In this document: piece after piece, positions 4,876-32,458 of the stretch
How the letters are laid out: every line of letters begins with the position of its first letter
Position numbering within the stretch: position 1 is the first letter of the stretch
Origin: Candidatus Poriferisocius aerobius
GTDB lineage: Bacteria > Actinomycetota > Acidimicrobiia > Acidimicrobiales > Bin134
Assembly (NCBI GenBank): GCA_028278955.1
Contig: JAPYOC010000174.1
Span: 1 to 33,354 of the forward strand
Direction of reading: 5' to 3'
Length of the DNA stretch: 33,354 nucleotides
The notes under the pieces: model-generated
What the model saw: the letters and a program-made list of their open reading frames with translations, nothing else
What the model was told of the DNA's origin: nothing
The model's database searches: none
Position numbers and translations under genes: made by a program

Positions 4876-6534
4876 CTAAAGCATCGCCTTGATGCCCAGA
4901 GCGGCGTACCCCTGCTCCTCGTAGTTCCGGCGGAACAGGTCGCGCAGGGCAACGGCGGCCTCGTCGTAGGCTTCGGGATCGCTCCAAGTGTTGCGGGGGT
5001 TCAGGACCTCGTCGGCGACTCCGGGGCACGATTCGGGTATTCGCAGCCCCAGAACGGGGAGCCTGACGGTGTCCACGTGGTCGAGGTCGCCGTTGAGAGC
5101 GGCGTTGAGCAGCGCCCGAGTATGGGCGATGGACAGGCGATCGCCCACCCCGTAGGGCCCTCCCGACCAGCCGGTGTTCAACAGGATGCAGCGGGCCGAG
5201 TGGTCATCCATGCGGTGGGCGAGGAGTTCGGCGTACACCGAGGGCCTGTGCGACATGAACGGGGCTCCGAAACAGGCGCTGAACGTGGCCTGCGGCGCCA
5301 CCACGCCCACCTCGGTGCCGGCCAGCTTGGAGGTGAACCCCATCACGAAGTGGTACATCACCTCTTCTCGGTCGAGTATCGACACCGGGGGGAGCACGCC
5401 GAAGGCGTCCGCGGTCAACAGCACGATGGTGCGGGGGTGAGGCCCCCTGGCGCCGGGCGCCACATGGGGGTTGCAGGAGAGCGGATAAGCGAAGCGGGTG
5501 TTCTCGGTGATGGAGTCGTCGGTCAGGTCGAGTTCTTGGGGATCGGTGTCGGCGAGGTCTTGGCCTTCCAGGGCGGGGACGTTCTCAATGAGGGTCCCCC
5601 TCACCGACAGGGCGGCGGCGATGATGGGCTCGGCCTCCTTGTCCAGGTCGATGAGTTTGGCGTAGCAGCCGTCCTCGAAATTGGCGATCCCCGATTCGGT
5701 CCAAACGTGCTCGTCGTCGCCGATCAGGCCGCGGTCGGGGTCGGCCGACAACGTGGTCTTCCCGGTGCCGGACAGGCCGAACAAAATGGCGCTGTTGCCG
5801 TTGTCGTCCACGTTGGCCGAGCAGTGCATGGTGAGCTGCTCGGCGTCGGGCAGCACGAAGTTCATCACCGTGAACATGGTCTTCTTCACCACGCCGCAGT
5901 AGTCGGCCCGACCGATCACCAGCCCCAGCCGGTTGCGCAGGTCTATGACGACGGCTCGGTCGGTGCGGGTGCCGTCGCGGTCGGGATCGCACCGGAAGCT
6001 GGGGACGTTGATCATCGTCCAGCCGGTGGAGTCGCGGTCGGAGTCGTCGCGCACGCCTTTGGGGAACATGATGTTGGCGAAGTAGGCGTGGGTGGCGTAC
6101 TCGCTGACCAGCCGGTAGGGGATGGCGAACTCGGGATCCCAGCCGCAGAACACATCGGCGGTGTACAGCGTGGCCTTCTGCTCGTTGAGGTGGGCCACCA
6201 CCTGCTCCAGCAGGCCGGTGTAGCGGTCGCCGTCCAGCGGGCTGAAGTCCGACTTCCACCACACCTCGTCCACCACCTCGGGCCAGGCCACCGCGAAGGT
6301 GTCTTGCACGGGGCGGCCGGTGCACGTCGGATCGGAGTAGAAAATCAGCGGTCCGTCGGCGCCCAGCGCGGTGGCGAACGCCTTCTGGTCGTGCTCTGCC
6401 CCGTCGAGGCGGGTGCGGCCCCGGTCGCCGTCGATGGCCGCGGCGAAGAGCTCCTCCTGGGTCAGCCCGGCCCGGACGTCCACCGAGTCCAAGCCGAAAC
6501 GAACGCGGAGATGGTCAGCGACTGATCCCGTCAC
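4876..6534 (-). CDS. pckA: Phosphoenolpyruvate carboxykinase, ATP-dependent
   Basis: The enzyme converts oxaloacetate and ATP to phosphoenolpyruvate and CO2, the entry step of gluconeogenesis. From the GTG at 6534 the protein has 552 residues, close to the usual 530-540. The ATP-type signatures are plain: FTVMNFVLPD near 221-230, the Walker A loop GLSGTGKTTLS at 253-263, DDEHVW near 273-278, NFEDGCYAK after it, ENTRFAYP, and TADAFGVLPPVS. A much longer open frame continues upstream to 6870, but that part is Arg/Pro-rich and antisense-like. The GTG overlaps the stop of the cold-shock-like gene (GTGA), and this start fits the family. Most studied actinobacteria use the unrelated GTP-type enzyme, so the ATP type is informative about lineage. 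Confidence 0.95.
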   Translation of the reverse strand: MTGSVADHLRVRFGLDSVDVRAGLTQEELFAAAIDGDRGRTRLDGAEHDQKAFATALGADGPLIFYSDPTCTGRPVQDTFAVAWPEVVDEVWWKSDFSPLDGDRYTGLLEQVVAHLNEQKATLYTADVFCGWDPEFAIPYRLVSEYATHAYFANIMFPKGVRDDSDRDSTGWTMINVPSFRCDPDRDGTRTDRAVVIDLRNRLGLVIGRADYCGVVKKTMFTVMNFVLPDAEQLTMHCSANVDDNGNSAILFGLSGTGKTTLSADPDRGLIGDDEHVWTESGIANFEDGCYAKLIDLDKEAEPIIAAALSVRGTLIENVPALEGQDLADTDPQELDLTDDSITENTRFAYPLSCNPHVAPGARGPHPRTIVLLTADAFGVLPPVSILDREEVMYHFVMGFTSKLAGTEVGVVAPQATFSACFGAPFMSHRPSVYAELLAHRMDDHSARCILLNTGWSGGPYGVGDRLSIAHTRALLNAALNGDLDHVDTVRLPVLGLRIPESCPGVADEVLNPRNTWSDPEAYDEAAVALRDLFRRNYEEQGYAALGIKAML

Positions 6535-6779
6535 GTGGGCTCTGGGTTGCGGGCCGCGGTGAGAAACGAGGGAGTGCCCATGTCCACCTCGGAGCCCAGC
6601 CGCAGGCGGGTGGCCTTTCCTGCGGCGATGTCGAACAGCACTCGCTGGCCTTGGCGCAGCATCCGGAACACCGATCCCTCCAGCGCGTCGGAGGCCAAGT
6701 CGAATTCGGCCCGATCGGTGTCGCGCACGACAACGCCAAGGCCGGTCGCGGGGTCGTAAGCCTTGATCACACCCTGCAC
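6531..6779 (-). CDS. Small cold-shock-domain-like protein coupled to pckA
   Basis: This 82-residue protein starts with GVIKAYDPATGLGVV, the layout of the first strands of a cold-shock (CspA) OB-fold. There TGLGVVV stands where the RNA-binding RNP1 motif KGFGFI normally lies. EFDLASDALEG and LRQGQRVLFDI match the later strands (the usual 'hxSai...l.eGqxVxFdv' pattern). The loss of RNP1 aromatics suggests weak or altered nucleic-acid binding. The start is GTG at 6779. The stop overlaps the pckA GTG by 4 bases, so the two are almost certainly translationally coupled. A regulatory role for pckA is possible but is inference. Confidence 0.7.
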   Translation of the reverse strand: MQGVIKAYDPATGLGVVVRDTDRAEFDLASDALEGSVFRMLRQGQRVLFDIAAGKATRLRLGSEVDMGTPSFLTAARNPEPT

Positions 6780-6864
6780 GGGGACTCTTTCTGACGGTGA
6801 TCGGGGACAACGGCAGGGTAACGGCCGGTTTGGGCGGTTCGCGAGTCGAAAAGCGCGGAGTCGC

Positions 6865-6878
6865 TACCATCTCGGGAC
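6865..6878 (+). promoter_or_regulatory. Leaderless -10 box for fakA
   Basis: TACCAT (6865-6870) matches the actinobacterial TANNNT -10 consensus and lies 8 bases before the ATG at 6879. No ribosome binding site is present, so the message would start at or very near the ATG. No convincing -35 box was found. Confidence 0.5.
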
Positions 6879-14301: not shown

Positions 14302-14601
14302 GTGCCATCTGAAACCCATGTCGAGCAGAGTCCGCTGGATCGCGACGGGGTTCTGGCGCTGGTCACCGAGTGTTTGGCGGAAATCTTGGAGATACCGCCC
14401 GACCGGATCGCCGAGGGCCAGGCCTTTGCCGACGACCTCGACGCCGATTCTCTTGCCCTCATCGAGCTGGTGGAGGCGTTGGAAGAGGAACTGAGCGAGA
14501 GGACGGTCGGATTCAGCATTGACGACGAAGACCTGGAGGATCTCAAGACGGTGCGAGATGCCGTCGACTATGTCCACGGCCGGCTGAGCCGAAGCTCCTG
14601 A
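14302..14601 (+). CDS. acpP: Acyl carrier protein
   Basis: From the GTG at 14302, with GGAG about 5 bases upstream, the protein has 99 residues, somewhat longer than the usual 77-85. The phosphopantetheine attachment Ser is S50 in DLDADSLALIELVEALEEE, the standard ACP helix II motif. The protein is strongly acidic. It shuttles acyl chains in fatty acid synthesis and is the natural donor for the neighbouring PlsX. The extra length is about a dozen N-terminal residues. An ATG at 14155 opens the frame earlier, but it overlaps plsX and the added part is not ACP-like. The stop overlaps the apparent CTG start of rnc. Confidence 0.92.
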   Translation: MPSETHVEQSPLDRDGVLALVTECLAEILEIPPDRIAEGQAFADDLDADSLALIELVEALEEELSERTVGFSIDDEDLEDLKTVRDAVDYVHGRLSRSS

Positions 14602-15311
14602 CTGCCGACCCCGATCTCGCTGCGCTGGCCGATCGCCTCGGCTACCGCTTCACCCGCCCCAGCCTGCTGGTCGAGGCGCTGACCCATCGTTCTTGGTGCG
14701 CCGACCACGCCGGGGCGCCCTCCAACGAGCGGCTGGAGTTCTTGGGCGACTCCGTCTTGGCCCTCGTGGTGACCGACCACATCTACACCGCGTTTCCGGA
14801 GATGGCTGAGGGCCAGCTCGCCCCTTTGCGAGCTGAAGTGGTGCGGGCCGAGACGCTGGCTGATCTGGCCGGCGAGCTTCAGCTGGCGAAGGCCATCCGC
14901 CTTGGGCGGGGCGAGGAGGTCTCGGGAGGAAGGGAGAAGCCGTCGATTCTCTCTGACGCCATGGAGGCGGTGATCGGGGCGGTCTACCTAGATGCCCCTT
15001 GGGAGGTTCTGATCGATCTGGTCCGGGGGTGGCTGGCCGCGCCCATTGCCGCAGCTTCTCAAGGTCCCGGTTTCCGGGATTTCAAGACCAGATTGCAGGA
15101 GTACTGCGCCCGCTGCGGCTACGAGGCGCCCGAGTACCGGCTGTCTGAGAAGGGCCCCGACCACGCCAAGCGGTTCTCGGCCGTTGTGCGCATGAACGGC
15201 AAGGAGCGGGGCCGGGGCGGGGGCCGGTCCAAAAAGCAGGCCGAGCAGGCCGCCGCCGCCGCCGCCTGGCAGACCCTGGATCTCGAGGCGGTTGCCGCCG
15301 TCACCCCATGA
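14598..15311 (+). CDS. rnc: Ribonuclease III, apparently starting at CTG
   Basis: RNase III cuts double-stranded RNA in rRNA precursors. The catalytic domain carries ALTHRSW near residues 27-33, the signature NERLEFLGDSVL at 43-54, and SDAMEAVIGAVYLD with the second acidic pair. A dsRNA-binding domain (about 155-232) ends with SKKQAEQAAAAAAW. With the CTG at 14598 the protein has 237 residues and begins TADPDLAALADRLGYRF, a normal RNase III N-terminus. There is no ATG, GTG or TTG in frame before the TTG at 14742, which falls inside the catalytic signature. The CTG overlaps the acpP stop as CTGA, so translational coupling probably drives initiation. No strong ribosome binding site is visible. 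Confidence 0.9.
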   Translation: MTADPDLAALADRLGYRFTRPSLLVEALTHRSWCADHAGAPSNERLEFLGDSVLALVVTDHIYTAFPEMAEGQLAPLRAEVVRAETLADLAGELQLAKAIRLGRGEEVSGGREKPSILSDAMEAVIGAVYLDAPWEVLIDLVRGWLAAPIAAASQGPGFRDFKTRLQEYCARCGYEAPEYRLSEKGPDHAKRFSAVVRMNGKERGRGGGRSKKQAEQAAAAAAWQTLDLEAVAAVTP

Positions 15312-15339
15312 TCGAAGCAGCCCGACGAGGAGTCGTCCG

Positions 15340-16185
15340 ATGATCGCATTGCCGGAAGCCGAGACCATCCGCCGCGACTTGGATCGAGAGCTGTCTGGGT
15401 TGCGGATCAAGTCGGTGGAGGTGGCAAAGGCGGGGTACGCCAAGCGGTCGGGGGGCGTGAAGAAGTTCGCCGCCCGGCTGGAGAAGGCCAAGATCACCAG
15501 CGTGCGCCGTCGGGGCCTGTACTTGATCGTGGGGTTGGACAGCGAGGATGTGTTGGTGGCCCACTTGGGCGCCGGCGGCCAGCTGCGCCGCAATGCCAAC
15601 CGGGATGATGTCGAACCCGACACCGTGGTGTCGATCACCTTCACCAAGAGCGGGCAGCTTCGGCTGGTGGACGGCGTCGGTGATGCCGGGCTGTTCTTGG
15701 TCGCGGCCGAAAAGCTGGCCGAAGAAGTCCCCGAGCTCGACGGGCTGGGCATCGACCCGCTAGATCAGCCGGTGCCCTGGCGGGTGTTCGGCCAGCTCCT
15801 CTTGGCCCAGGACGCCAAGCTGAAGGCGGTGCTGACCGATGACCAGGTAGTCGTCGGGCTAGGGGAGCTGTACTCCGACGAGATCCTCTTTTCCGCCGGC
15901 CTGCGATTCGACCGCCTCACGAGTTCGCTGGGGCCCCAGGAGGTCAGGCGCTTGCACCGGGCGATGGTGGAGACCCTCCACGACGCGGCAAAACATCGGG
16001 GCACCACCCTCGAGGACGGTCTCTACGTTGACGTCCACGGTCAGCCGGGCGGCTACGGAGAATATGTGAACGTGTTCAAGCAAGCGGGCCAGAAGGGCCG
16101 GCCCTGTCCCCGCTGCCACCGCCCCATCCAGAAATACCGCTTCCGCCGCCGGTGGACCTACTACTGCGAGCAGTGCCAGATCTGA
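15340..16185 (+). CDS. mutM: Fpg/Nei-fold DNA glycosylase-like protein lacking canonical catalytic residues
   Basis: At 281 residues this has the Fpg/MutM layout: N-terminal beta sandwich, helix-two-turn-helix (about 150-190, VVVGLGELYSDEILFSAG), and C-terminal zinc finger with C256, C259, C276 and C279, including the expected Arg in RRRWTYYC. It sits in the mutM position between rnc and smc. However, the N-terminus reads MIALPEAETI instead of MPELPEVETI. The catalytic Pro and Glu right after Met are therefore Ile and Ala. The usual active-site Lys (in RRxKYL) is Leu60 and the conserved Asn of GIGNIY is Glu176, while His75 is kept. The ATG at 15340 is well placed, with GAGGAG 7 bases upstream. 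A TTG at 15349 would give M-P-E but has no spaced ribosome binding site. Lesion-cutting activity is doubtful. Confidence 0.85.
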   Translation: MIALPEAETIRRDLDRELSGLRIKSVEVAKAGYAKRSGGVKKFAARLEKAKITSVRRRGLYLIVGLDSEDVLVAHLGAGGQLRRNANRDDVEPDTVVSITFTKSGQLRLVDGVGDAGLFLVAAEKLAEEVPELDGLGIDPLDQPVPWRVFGQLLLAQDAKLKAVLTDDQVVVGLGELYSDEILFSAGLRFDRLTSSLGPQEVRRLHRAMVETLHDAAKHRGTTLEDGLYVDVHGQPGGYGEYVNVFKQAGQKGRPCPRCHRPIQKYRFRRRWTYYCEQCQI

Positions 16186-16250: not shown

Positions 16251-19200
16251 ATGTTCTTGAAGGCGCTGACGATGAAGGGGTTCAAATCCTTCGCCGACTC
16301 CACCACGCTGGAGTTCGAGCCCGGCGTCACCGCTATCGTGGGCCCCAACGGCAGCGGCAAGTCCAACGTGGTCGACGCGGTGGCCTGGGCCCTGGGAGCG
16401 CAGGCCCCGACATCGGTGCGCTCGGCCAAGATGGATGACGTCATTTTCGCGGGAACCGCCACCCGGGCCCGACTGGGCCGGGCGGAGGTCTCGCTCAGCA
16501 TCGACAATGCCTCCCGACTGCTGCCCATCGATTTCGAGGACGTCACCATCACCCGCACGCTGTTCCGCAGCGGCGACAGCGCCTACGCCATCAACGGCGT
16601 GCCCTGTCGCCTGCTCGACATCCAGGAGCTGCTGAGCGACTCCGGCGTCGGCCGCCAACAGCATGTGATCGTCTCTCAGCGCCAGATCGAGGGAGTGCTG
16701 AGCGCCCGGCCCGAGGACCGCCGAGCGGTCATTGAGGAGGCGGCCGGAGTGCTGAAGCACCGCCGCCGCAAGGAGAAGTCGGAGCGGCGGCTGGCGGCGT
16801 CAGAGGCCAACCTCAGCCGGCTGTCCGATGTGGTGCGTGAGATACGCCGCCAGCTGCGCCCGTTGGAACGACAAGCCGAGGCCGCCCGGTGCCACGGTGA
16901 TCTGGTGGCGGAGTTGAGCGGTATCCGTCGTTTTCTGGCCGGGCGGGAGGTCGAGCAGCTGCGCCGACGGGTTCGCCAGCTGACCCAAGACCAGGCTGCC
17001 CACCGCCGCGAGGCGCAGCAGATCACCGGTCGGGTCGAGGCAGTGGACCGGGAGCTTGCCGCCGCCGAGATACGGCTCTCGGCGACCGAAGGGCAGGACA
17101 TCAGCAACGCTTTGCTGCGCTTCGAAGCGGTGACCGAGCGTCTGCGGGGTTTGGAGGCGCTGTTGGCGGAGCGCCGTCTGCGCCTGCTGAGCGAGCGCAG
17201 CGCAGGCACAGACGAGGATGTGGTGGCCACGCTGGAGGCCGAATCGCACCGTCTGGGCCAAGAGCTGGAAGAGGTGGAGCAGTCGGAGGCCGCTCTGAGG
17301 CCTGATGCGGCCGCCGTCCACGACGCCGAACAAGAGCTGGAGCAGCTCCGCCTGTCGTTCGACGAGCGGTGGGGCGCCGAGCCCCCGGCACCAGCAGGCT
17401 CGGAGGCGGCTCGGGTCGCCGGGGAGATCAGGATATTGGAGGCATCCATCCACCGGGACCAGGCAGAGCGGGCTCGTCTCAGCCGCGACTTGGAGGAGTT
17501 GGAGCAGCGCCGACAGGAGTTGGTCGAGGAGCTGGACCGGAGCTGGGCCGAGGCTGCTGCGGCCGAGGCTTCCCAGCGATCCCGGTGGGAGCAGCACCAG
17601 TCGGCCGAGCGTTCGATGGAACAGGCCCGGGCCGGTTGCGAGCAACAGAGGGCGGCTCTGGCCGAGGCGGTCGGAGATCGGCAGGCCTGGGAGGCTCGGC
17701 GGGAGGCGCTTTCGCTGGCGTTGGACGAGGCGCGCGACGCATCAGGGGCTCAGCGCCTCGCCGGCATCCAAGGCGTGGTCGGCACCCTGTTCGACATCGT
17801 AGACGTCGATCGGGGATGGGAGGCGGCGTTTGAGGCCGCCGCCGCCGACGCGGTCGCCGCCGTGGTGGCCACCGACTCAGAGGCGGCCATGAGGGCTATC
17901 GCCACTCTGGAGGCCGACAATGCGAGCGGCGCGGTCTTGGTTTTGGGCTCGCCGGGGGCGGGGGCGGCAATCCCGGCTGCCGGCGTCCCCCTGCGTCGCC
18001 ATGTCTGTTCGTCGGTGGCGGGTGTGGACCGGCTCCTCGATGCCCTCGTCGGCGATGTCGGGGTGGTGGGCAGCAGCGAGGAGGCGGCCGCCGCCGCGGT
18101 GGCCCACCCCGCCTCCGTGGTGGTGACGCGCCGGGGCGACCGGTTCTCGCCTTCTGGATGGCGGGTGGGGGTTCGCCGCTCGGGGGCGACGAGGGGCCTG
18201 TTGGAAGAGGCCGAGCAGGCCTCGGCCCGAGCGGTCGAAGCGGTCGGGGCCGCCGAGCAGCGCCTCGTCGAGGCGCAAAGCCGCCGGGAGGAGGCCGAGC
18301 AACGCGAGGCCCAGGCCCGAGAGCAGGCCAACAGCCAGGCTGAGGCGGCAAAAAGCACTCGGAATCGGGCGGCTGCGGTGGAGCGGGAGCTTCGAGACGC
18401 AGAGGTGGGAATCGCCGCGCTCGGGCCCCGCGGCCAAGAGTTGGACGACAGGATCAATGAGGACCTCCGCCGGGCGGGCCAGCTCCACCGGGAGCTGCCC
18501 CGCCATGAAGCCGAAGAAGCCGGGCAGCGGGCCCGGGCCGAGAAGACAAGCCGAGCCCGACAGGAGTTGGCCGAGAAGTCGCAAGCGGCCAGCAGTCTCC
18601 GCTCCGACTACCAGGTGCGAGCGGCGGGGATCGACGAGCGGCGCCGGTTGCTGAGCACCCAGCGGGCAGAGATCGAGCGCCGCTTGAGCCAGATGGCCCA
18701 AGCCCGGGCCGAAGCCGCCTCGCGTCGGGAGGCGGTCGACCTCAGGCTGTCCGTCGTCGACCAGATGATGCAGCTGGTGGCCCGAAGGGCCCACCAGGCG
18801 GGCCGCGGGCTTGAGGATCTTCGCCATCGACGGGCCCGGGAATCGGAGGCGGCGAGGGCAGCCGCCCAGCGGCTGGAGGACTTGCGGGGCCAGCGGTCGC
18901 AGGCGGAGGCCAGGCTGGGGCAGTGCCGAGAGCGGGACCGCAGCGCCGAAATCGAGCTGGCGGAAGCGAGCGTCAGGCTGGAGGCCGCAGTCGACCGCTG
19001 CCGCCGCGACTTGAACTGCGAGCCCGGTGAAGCGGTGGCCGAGCCGTGCCCTCCTCTGGTGCCCGGCGTTGCGCCCGCTGACCGGGCTCGGGCCTTAGAG
19101 CAAGAACTTCGCATCATGGGGCCGGTGAACCCGTTGGCGTTGGAGGAGTACGAGGCGATGTCGGAGCGCTACGAGTTCACCCAGGGCCAGATTGACGACA

Positions 19201-19745
19201 TCCGCCAAAGCCGCCGAGAGCTCCGCAAGGTGATCCGCAAGATCGACGAGGAGATCATCACCGTGTTCTCCTCGGCGTATGCCGACGTGGCCCGAAACTT
19301 CGCCGACCTGTTCAAGACCTTGTTCCCCGGCGGCGAGGGCACGCTGAAGCTCAACCAGCCCGACGCGTTGCTCGACACCGGGGTGGAGATCGATGCCCGC
19401 CCGTCGGGCAAGAACGTCCGGCGGCTGAGCCTGCTCTCGGGAGGGGAGCGCTCGCTCACCGCGCTGGCCTTCTTGTTTGCGGTCTTCCGCAGCCGGCCAT
19501 CGCCGTTCTATGTCATGGACGAGGTGGAGGCCGCGCTCGACGACATCAACCTGCACCGCTTTCTCCATCTCATCGACGAGTTCCGAGCCGATGCCCAGCT
19601 TCTCATTGTGAGCCACCAGAAGCGCACAATGGAAGCGGCTGACTGCCTCTACGGGGTGTCATTGAAACCGGGGGGAAGCTCCAAGGTGCTTTCCGAAAAG
19701 GCGATGGTAGCCTCGCAGCCGAAGGTACTTATCGGACAAGGTTGA
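16251..19745 (+). CDS. smc: Chromosome segregation protein SMC
   Basis: SMC is the ATPase core of bacterial condensin, which organises and separates chromosomes. At 1164 residues it has normal length. The Walker A loop GPNGSGKS is at residues 31-38. The R-loop region and VGRQQHVIVSQRQIEGVLSA follow (split by an ordinary linker). Long coiled coils run from about 165 to 495 and 650 to 950, and the hinge from about 500 to 640 begins GIQGVVGTLFD. The C-terminal head has LSGGERS at 1062-1068 and Walker B FYVMDEVEAALDD near 1086. The stop overlaps the next gene region, 2 bases before its ATG. scpA and scpB are not in this window. Confidence 0.97.
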   Translation: MFLKALTMKGFKSFADSTTLEFEPGVTAIVGPNGSGKSNVVDAVAWALGAQAPTSVRSAKMDDVIFAGTATRARLGRAEVSLSIDNASRLLPIDFEDVTITRTLFRSGDSAYAINGVPCRLLDIQELLSDSGVGRQQHVIVSQRQIEGVLSARPEDRRAVIEEAAGVLKHRRRKEKSERRLAASEANLSRLSDVVREIRRQLRPLERQAEAARCHGDLVAELSGIRRFLAGREVEQLRRRVRQLTQDQAAHRREAQQITGRVEAVDRELAAAEIRLSATEGQDISNALLRFEAVTERLRGLEALLAERRLRLLSERSAGTDEDVVATLEAESHRLGQELEEVEQSEAALRPDAAAVHDAEQELEQLRLSFDERWGAEPPAPAGSEAARVAGEIRILEASIHRDQAERARLSRDLEELEQRRQELVEELDRSWAEAAAAEASQRSRWEQHQSAERSMEQARAGCEQQRAALAEAVGDRQAWEARREALSLALDEARDASGAQRLAGIQGVVGTLFDIVDVDRGWEAAFEAAAADAVAAVVATDSEAAMRAIATLEADNASGAVLVLGSPGAGAAIPAAGVPLRRHVCSSVAGVDRLLDALVGDVGVVGSSEEAAAAAVAHPASVVVTRRGDRFSPSGWRVGVRRSGATRGLLEEAEQASARAVEAVGAAEQRLVEAQSRREEAEQREAQAREQANSQAEAAKSTRNRAAAVERELRDAEVGIAALGPRGQELDDRINEDLRRAGQLHRELPRHEAEEAGQRARAEKTSRARQELAEKSQAASSLRSDYQVRAAGIDERRRLLSTQRAEIERRLSQMAQARAEAASRREAVDLRLSVVDQMMQLVARRAHQAGRGLEDLRHRRARESEAARAAAQRLEDLRGQRSQAEARLGQCRERDRSAEIELAEASVRLEAAVDRCRRDLNCEPGEAVAEPCPPLVPGVAPADRARALEQELRIMGPVNPLALEEYEAMSERYEFTQGQIDDIRQSRRELRKVIRKIDEEIITVFSSAYADVARNFADLFKTLFPGGEGTLKLNQPDALLDTGVEIDARPSGKNVRRLSLLSGGERSLTALAFLFAVFRSRPSPFYVMDEVEAALDDINLHRFLHLIDEFRADAQLLIVSHQKRTMEAADCLYGVSLKPGGSSKVLSEKAMVASQPKVLIGQG

Positions 19746-31591: not shown

Positions 31592-32458
31592 ATGGCGCCA
31601 GTCGTTACGATGCGTCAACTGCTCGATGCCGGAGTCCATTTCGGACACCAGACCCGGCGCTGGAACCCGAAGATGCAGCGCTTCATCTTCGGAGAGCGGG
31701 ATGGCATCTACATCATTGACCTGACCCAGACGCTGGCCCGTATCGAGTCGGCCTACATTTTTGTTCGCGATCTGGTGTCCAAGGGCGGCCAGGTGCTCTT
31801 CGTGGGCACGAAGAAGCAAGCCCAAGACAGCGTGCAGAGCTATGCGGAGCGCGTGGGGATGCCATATGTGAACGAGCGGTGGCTCGGCGGTCTCCTGACC
31901 AATTTTGAAACCATCTCCAAGCGAATGGGCAAAATGAAGGAGTTCCAGCGGATGCGCAGCTCGGGCGAACTCGACGTCATGCCCAAGAAAGAAGCCCTCC
32001 TCATCTCCCGGGAGCTCGCGAAGCTTGAGCGCAACCTCAACGGCATTCGCGACCTGACCCGGCCGCCCGACGCGGTGTTTGTGCTTGACACCAAAAAGGA
32101 GCACATCGCGGTGGCCGAGGCCAACAAGCTGAGGCTGCCGGTTATCGCCGTGGTGGATACCAACTGCGATCCCGACGTCATCCAATACGTGATCCCCGGC
32201 AATGACGACGCGATCCGCTCCGGCGAGTTGATGTGCCGGATAGTCAGCGATGCCGTCCTCGAGGGCCGGTACATGGCAAGGACAAATGCCGCCAAGGAGC
32301 CTCAGGCAGCTGCGGCGGCCCCGCCTGCCAAGGAGCCTCAGGCGGTTGCGGCGGCCCCGCCTGCCAAGGAGCCTCAGGCGGTTGCGGCGGCCCCGCCCGC
32401 AGATGAGGCCGCGCCAACCGTTGAAGTCGAGCGAATTCAATCAGAGGAGCAGGCGTGA
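31592..32458 (+). CDS. rpsB: 30S ribosomal protein S2 with repeat-rich C-terminal tail
   Basis: S2 joins the 30S subunit late. The core (about 1-228) has the family motifs [59 protein letters not shown], and the C-terminal core strand [13 protein letters not shown]. The protein then continues to 288 residues with three exact-like copies of a 12-residue unit (AKEPQAxAAAPP) and an acidic end. A GAGAGGAG sequence about 8 bases before the ATG is a strong ribosome binding site. The stop overlaps the tsf start as GTGA, tighter than in most bacteria. Confidence 0.97.
32291..32398 (+). repeat. Three 36-bp tandem repeats in the rpsB tail
   Basis: Units lie at 32291-32326, 32327-32362 and 32363-32398. 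Each encodes AKEPQA, then a variable Ala or Val, then AAAPP. The second and third units are almost identical at the base level, and the first differs at a few bases, which points to recent duplication. Confidence 0.85.

Follow-up and report, generated by a model that had tools for sequence, protein, structure and literature searches.

A degenerate protein of the MutM (Fpg) family, encoded between rnc and smc in Candidatus Poriferisocius aerobius, is probably a displaced MutM that has been retained as a non-catalytic pseudoenzyme, most likely as a DNA- or partner-binding or scaffold protein. Its gene lies in a window of 33,354 nucleotides (the whole stretch of DNA analysed here), in which the following features bear on the argument:

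14598..15311, + strand: rnc (RNase III), first gene upstream, part of the conserved cluster
15328..15332, + strand: Shine-Dalgarno AGGAG, 7 nt 5' of the ATG (sequence; kept across the genus)
15340..16185, + strand: pseudo-MutM, degenerate Fpg/MutM-family protein of 281 aa (Pfam, NCBIfam, alignment, predicted structure)
15343..15348, + strand: Ile2-Ala3 replacing the catalytic Pro2-Glu3 (alignment)
15349..15351, + strand: TTG (Leu4), alternative start codon, not kept across congeners (codon comparison)
15517..15519, + strand: Leu60 replacing the phosphate-gripping Lys60 (alignment)
15571..15573, + strand: Ala78 replacing the void-filling Met77, Bst MutM numbering (alignment)
15676..15684, + strand: Val113 and Asp115 replacing the void-filling Arg112 and Phe114 (alignment)
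15775..16005, + strand: H2TH domain, its conservation 0.88 of that in canonical proteins (Pfam; identity comparison)
15865..15867, + strand: Glu176 replacing the phosphate-binding Asn174 (alignment)
16096..16182, + strand: C-terminal zinc finger, complete in the window protein with four Cys and Arg271 (equivalent to Arg264 of Bst MutM); Cys missing from other subclades
16251..19745, + strand: smc, first gene downstream, part of the conserved cluster

Judged by tree and synteny, the window protein is the direct MutM/Fpg orthologue by descent, and it possesses both the Fpg N-terminal domain and the H2TH fold (Pfam Fapy_DNA_glyco, 1.2e-19; H2TH, 4.8e-16). Its AlphaFold model (pLDDT 91.4) adopts the MutM fold and matches Bst MutM (1r2y) with Z 34.4 and an rmsd of 2.2 over 273 residues, while the zinc-finger cysteines (C256, C259, C276, C279) and the finger Arg (R271) are in place. 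Fold, helix-two-turn-helix and zinc finger are thus intact, as an earlier reading of the letters by themselves (the sequence-only reading) had stated. The protein falls just under both NCBIfam Fpg cut-offs (199.3 against 212 and 186.9 against 203.3), canonical neighbours scoring about 300, and fails the NCBIfam Nei/Nei2 cut-offs as well (57.1 against 252 and 37.9 against 400).

On the + strand, the gene has rnc before it and smc after it, and both neighbours are conserved. Comparison within the genus makes the ATG at 15340 secure as its true start, since the 20 sequences retrieved for the genus all have ATG here (20/20) and AGGAG is likewise invariant. The sequence-only reading had itself raised the alternative that translation begins at the TTG at 15349, which is in frame within the window and would give an N-terminal Pro-Glu. 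Codon 4 is TTG in 9/20 congeners, but CTA, CTT or CTC (Leu codons not used as starts) or CTG in the other 11/20, and this variability beside a conserved ATG and Shine-Dalgarno refutes such a start. Pro5-Glu6 of the window protein correspond by homology to Pro5-Glu6 of canonical enzymes, and the remaining catalytic residues would be absent even so; we give a misread start practically no credence.

The upstream neighbour has a start-site peculiarity of its own. The rnc gene apparently begins with CTG, sharing CTGA (14598-14601) with the acpP stop, and no in-frame ATG, GTG or TTG stands ahead of its conserved N-terminal region; the CTG is present here and in 19/20 of the congeners checked, L112 being the one in which the motif was not found. 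This suggests that the CTG start is conserved and translationally coupled. Elsewhere in the window, the rpsB (S2) frame carries a C-terminal tandem-repeat extension (32245-32420), and a PEP carboxykinase-like frame (4876-6870) exceeds the usual length by about 120 codons at its N-terminus, which may reflect a wrongly placed start or a problem with the frame.

The residues on which the sequence-only reading had relied, namely the N-terminus MIALPEAE, Leu60, the retained His75, Glu176 and the finger Arg, were all confirmed by translation and alignment. Its list of losses was correct as far as it went, and omitted the void-filling Met77, Arg112 and Phe114, which are lost too. In canonical enzymes, Pro2 and Glu3 are catalytic, Lys60, Asn174 and Arg264 form the phosphate-stabilising set, and the Arg112/Phe114 region is the intercalation loop (PMC3188539). 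The same reading had held the Pro nucleophile to be essential, which is not supported: E. coli Fpg P2G and P2T mutants are reported to have about 10% activity left on Fapy-dG, and hNEIL1 P2G to have residual lyase activity (PMC10164570). Because loss of Pro2 alone is insufficient, the argument for inactivity rests on the joint loss of Pro2, Glu3, Lys60, Asn174, Met77, Arg112 and Phe114, from which we infer that the window protein is probably catalytically dead.

These losses extend far beyond a single protein. Among 151 sequences aligned with Bst MutM (104 degenerate, including the window protein, and 47 canonical), the degenerate set keeps Pro2 in 6/104, Lys60 in 2/104 and Met77 and Phe114 in 0/104, whereas all four are near-invariant in the canonical 47; Asn174 is mostly lost too. 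Position 2 is occupied by I, L, F, Y, A, R, V or N, and occasionally still by P, so that the M-[I/L]-x-L-P-E start proposed earlier does not serve as a clade marker. Glu6 (mature E5) is kept in 104/104 degenerate sequences, and Glu181 of the Bst DE motif is equally invariant. Two features that had been taken to support function do not hold up at this scale: His75 is H, Q or N within the genus and mostly gone in the wider degenerate clade, and the finger Arg is often lost across it, the zinc ligands being lost in two thirds of the non-redundant degenerate set. Relative to canonical proteins, identity in the degenerate clade is lowest, at 0.47, for residues 112-130 (the pocket-side loop); the H2TH core stands at 0.87, the C-terminal finger at 0.91 and the long helix 194-222 at 0.96. 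By this comparison, erosion is centred on the lesion pocket, with the H2TH helices and the C-terminus retained.

The gene is carried by 21/21 same-genus relatives examined, at 74-89% identity and with open frames free of stops, and orthologues in these relatives and in over 20 other families of Acidimicrobiales share most of the losses. Records of genus and clade come from Acidimicrobiia, for example Candidatus Poriferisocius (the window genus) and Candidatus Microthrix. Elsewhere in the order, families carry either a fully canonical or a degenerate gene at the rnc-smc address, and intermediates are few. A tree was built from an alignment stripped of the N-terminus, the finger and every trait column, as a control against trait-driven grouping, and 48/48 non-redundant degenerate sequences formed one clade (95/91) nested inside canonical rnc–mutM–smc Fpg; the conserved clade sought by the sequence-only reading does exist. 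Independent origins of degeneracy are not favoured, as the single clade is recovered with and without the trait columns, and an assembly error in a single genome was rejected, as the trait recurs in independent MAGs and in two MAG assemblies at chromosome level (L105 and L111). On the tree, Met77, Arg112 and Phe114 require one change each, Pro2 six, Asn174 seven and the first zinc Cys four; since the triad changed once each and Pro2 six times, base eversion appears to have been lost first and the nucleophile to have drifted later. One protein (L027, genome G026) keeps Pro2, Glu3, Lys60, the His and Arg112, has lost Met77, Phe114, Asn174 and the finger Arg, and is a possible intermediate between canonical and degenerate forms.

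The pseudo-MutM gene is under strong purifying selection. Its median dN/dS within the genus is 0.092, similar to that of rnc (0.085) and smc (0.096), in agreement with the earlier opinion that it is not a pseudogene. Residue losses do accompany a second Fpg in most genomes, as would be expected of a gene made redundant and left to decay, but a dN/dS equal to that of its neighbours, stop-free frames in 21/21 same-genus relatives and long-term retention over more than 20 families make ordinary decay a very improbable explanation.

A second canonical Fpg, which had been suggested as a check, was found in the same genome. The genome encodes two further Fpg/Nei proteins, of which L001 on contig C175 has all canonical catalytic residues and passes the NCBIfam Fpg cut-offs; the other, L003 (G000:C39:2733-3437; PEIIEVEYYRR...), is a third Fpg/Nei-like protein far under the Fpg and Nei cut-offs. 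With 50% identity or more taken to define the L001 type, such an Fpg was present in 24/28 degenerate genomes versus 0/41 with a canonical MutM-position protein in a first sample, and in 36/39 (one a contig-edge fragment) versus 0/9 in a second, partly overlapping sample. The Fisher p-values for this association are tiny, yet overstated, as the genomes share ancestry, and the presence of the L001 type may be one ancestral event, which would make the counts non-independent. Relatives with up to 54% identity occur elsewhere in Actinomycetota, so the L001-type Fpg was probably gained by transfer from other members of the phylum. The earliest-branching degenerate lineage (L041/L169) is without it, so some erosion may predate the gain, unless that lineage lost the L001 type; L027 also has no L001-type Fpg.

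The losses, together with the second Fpg, are best explained by the following probable course of events. The vertically inherited MutM of the rnc-mutM-smc cluster would have become a pseudoenzyme in the ancestor of a large Acidimicrobiales clade, losing Met77, Arg112 and Phe114, which fill the void of the flipped base, and the phosphate-gripping Lys60 on or near the stem branch, whereas Pro2, Asn174 and, in subclades, zinc would have been lost later and repeatedly. Excision of oxidised purines would have been handed to a canonical Fpg elsewhere in the genome (here the L001 type on contig C175), and the old MutM, presumably made together with RNase III and SMC, would have been kept for a function of its fold, H2TH helices and C-terminal finger. 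That role is most likely to bind DNA or a partner without catalysis, whether as a scaffold, an end or junction binder or a repair regulator.

Two other functions compete with such non-catalytic binding. The protein could still be an enzyme with altered chemistry or substrate, for instance an AP lyase of low activity that employs the Met1 alpha-amine, or a monofunctional glycosylase that relies on Glu6 and water. The invariance of Glu6 and Glu181, the strong purifying selection and the residual activity of P2G hNEIL1 and of the E. coli Fpg mutants (PMC10164570) speak for it, and residual activity through the Met1 amine and Glu6 is formally conceivable. A gained polar cluster or new catalytic motif was sought in the degenerate clade, however, and none that looks catalytic was found, the few newly conserved residues being R83, T222, L at 243 and Y274; the different chemistry put forward in the sequence-only reading therefore finds no support. 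Position 2 is also freely variable, nearly all base-everting and phosphate-gripping residues are missing, and the pocket-side loop is the least conserved region, so that we consider an altered enzyme improbable.

A purely protein-level role is the main rival to non-catalytic binding, although we still think it unlikely: pseudo-MutM may have left DNA entirely for a protein-protein or RNA role, for example with the flanking-gene products RNase III and SMC. It would accommodate the unbroken synteny with rnc and smc, a median pI of about 6 in the zinc-less majority of the degenerate clade, and the conservation of the C-terminal finger and helix 194-222 though DNA contacts are lost. The synteny is nevertheless older than the catalytic loss and hence no evidence of a new partnership, and the protein of the window genus is basic (pI 8.8) and keeps four Cys and the finger Arg, features with which DNA binding is plausible there. 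DNA binding may not be the clade's common function, since a median pI of 6.5 (against 9.1 in canonical proteins) and the loss of zinc ligands in many members weaken it as a shared property.

Alteration at residue 2 is tolerated elsewhere in the family, as NEIL3 has Val2. A group of Firmicutes proteins starting MIELPEA may be Fpg/Nei-like. Unlike the Nei type, the window protein reaches a Nei-model score of only 57 bits, against a cut-off of 252, and is an Fpg orthologue by tree and synteny. It resembles canonical MutM/Fpg (Mtb Fpg1 type; Bst MutM, 1r2y) in fold, H2TH, finger, length and rnc-mutM-smc position, fpg1 of M. tuberculosis being reportedly rnc-adjacent too (PMC2734929), and differs from it in being without Pro2, Glu3, Lys60, Met77, Arg112, Phe114 and Asn174 and in scoring under the NCBIfam Fpg cut-offs. 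The nearest precedent in the literature consulted is M. tuberculosis Fpg2 (Rv0944), a truncated Fpg homologue that lacks the catalytic N-terminus and is encoded alongside other Fpg/Nei enzymes of the same genome (PMC2734929); unlike it, the window protein is full length, shows point losses and is conserved in many families. Some members of the degenerate clade have lost zinc ligands and so recall the zincless-finger clades PFNei and NEIL1, in which the zincless finger is reported to fulfil the zinc finger's role (PMC3188539), but the degenerate clade often loses the finger Arg as well, and the window protein keeps both ligands and Arg. Our literature searches on inactive or pseudo Fpg and on Acidimicrobiales Fpg returned nothing on point, and the literature searched yielded no precedent for an Fpg that is full length and strongly conserved over much of an order yet stripped of its catalytic residues. 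Kinases and phosphatases include well-known pseudoenzymes; to our knowledge, few that are old, full-length and strongly conserved are known among DNA glycosylases.

The clade offers an ordered series, from canonical proteins through loss of the eversion loop and loss of the nucleophile to loss of zinc, which separates the parts of MutM that serve catalysis from those that serve something else, and the second Fpg makes the displacement history testable. We tentatively propose, as a possibility still short of likely, that the Acidimicrobiales pseudo-glycosylase went out of base excision and took on a conserved structural or regulatory role after the Fpg takeover, being produced alongside RNase III and SMC. 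Across much of Acidimicrobiales, a gene at the mutM address that bears the name Fpg on grounds of homology probably does not encode a repair glycosylase.
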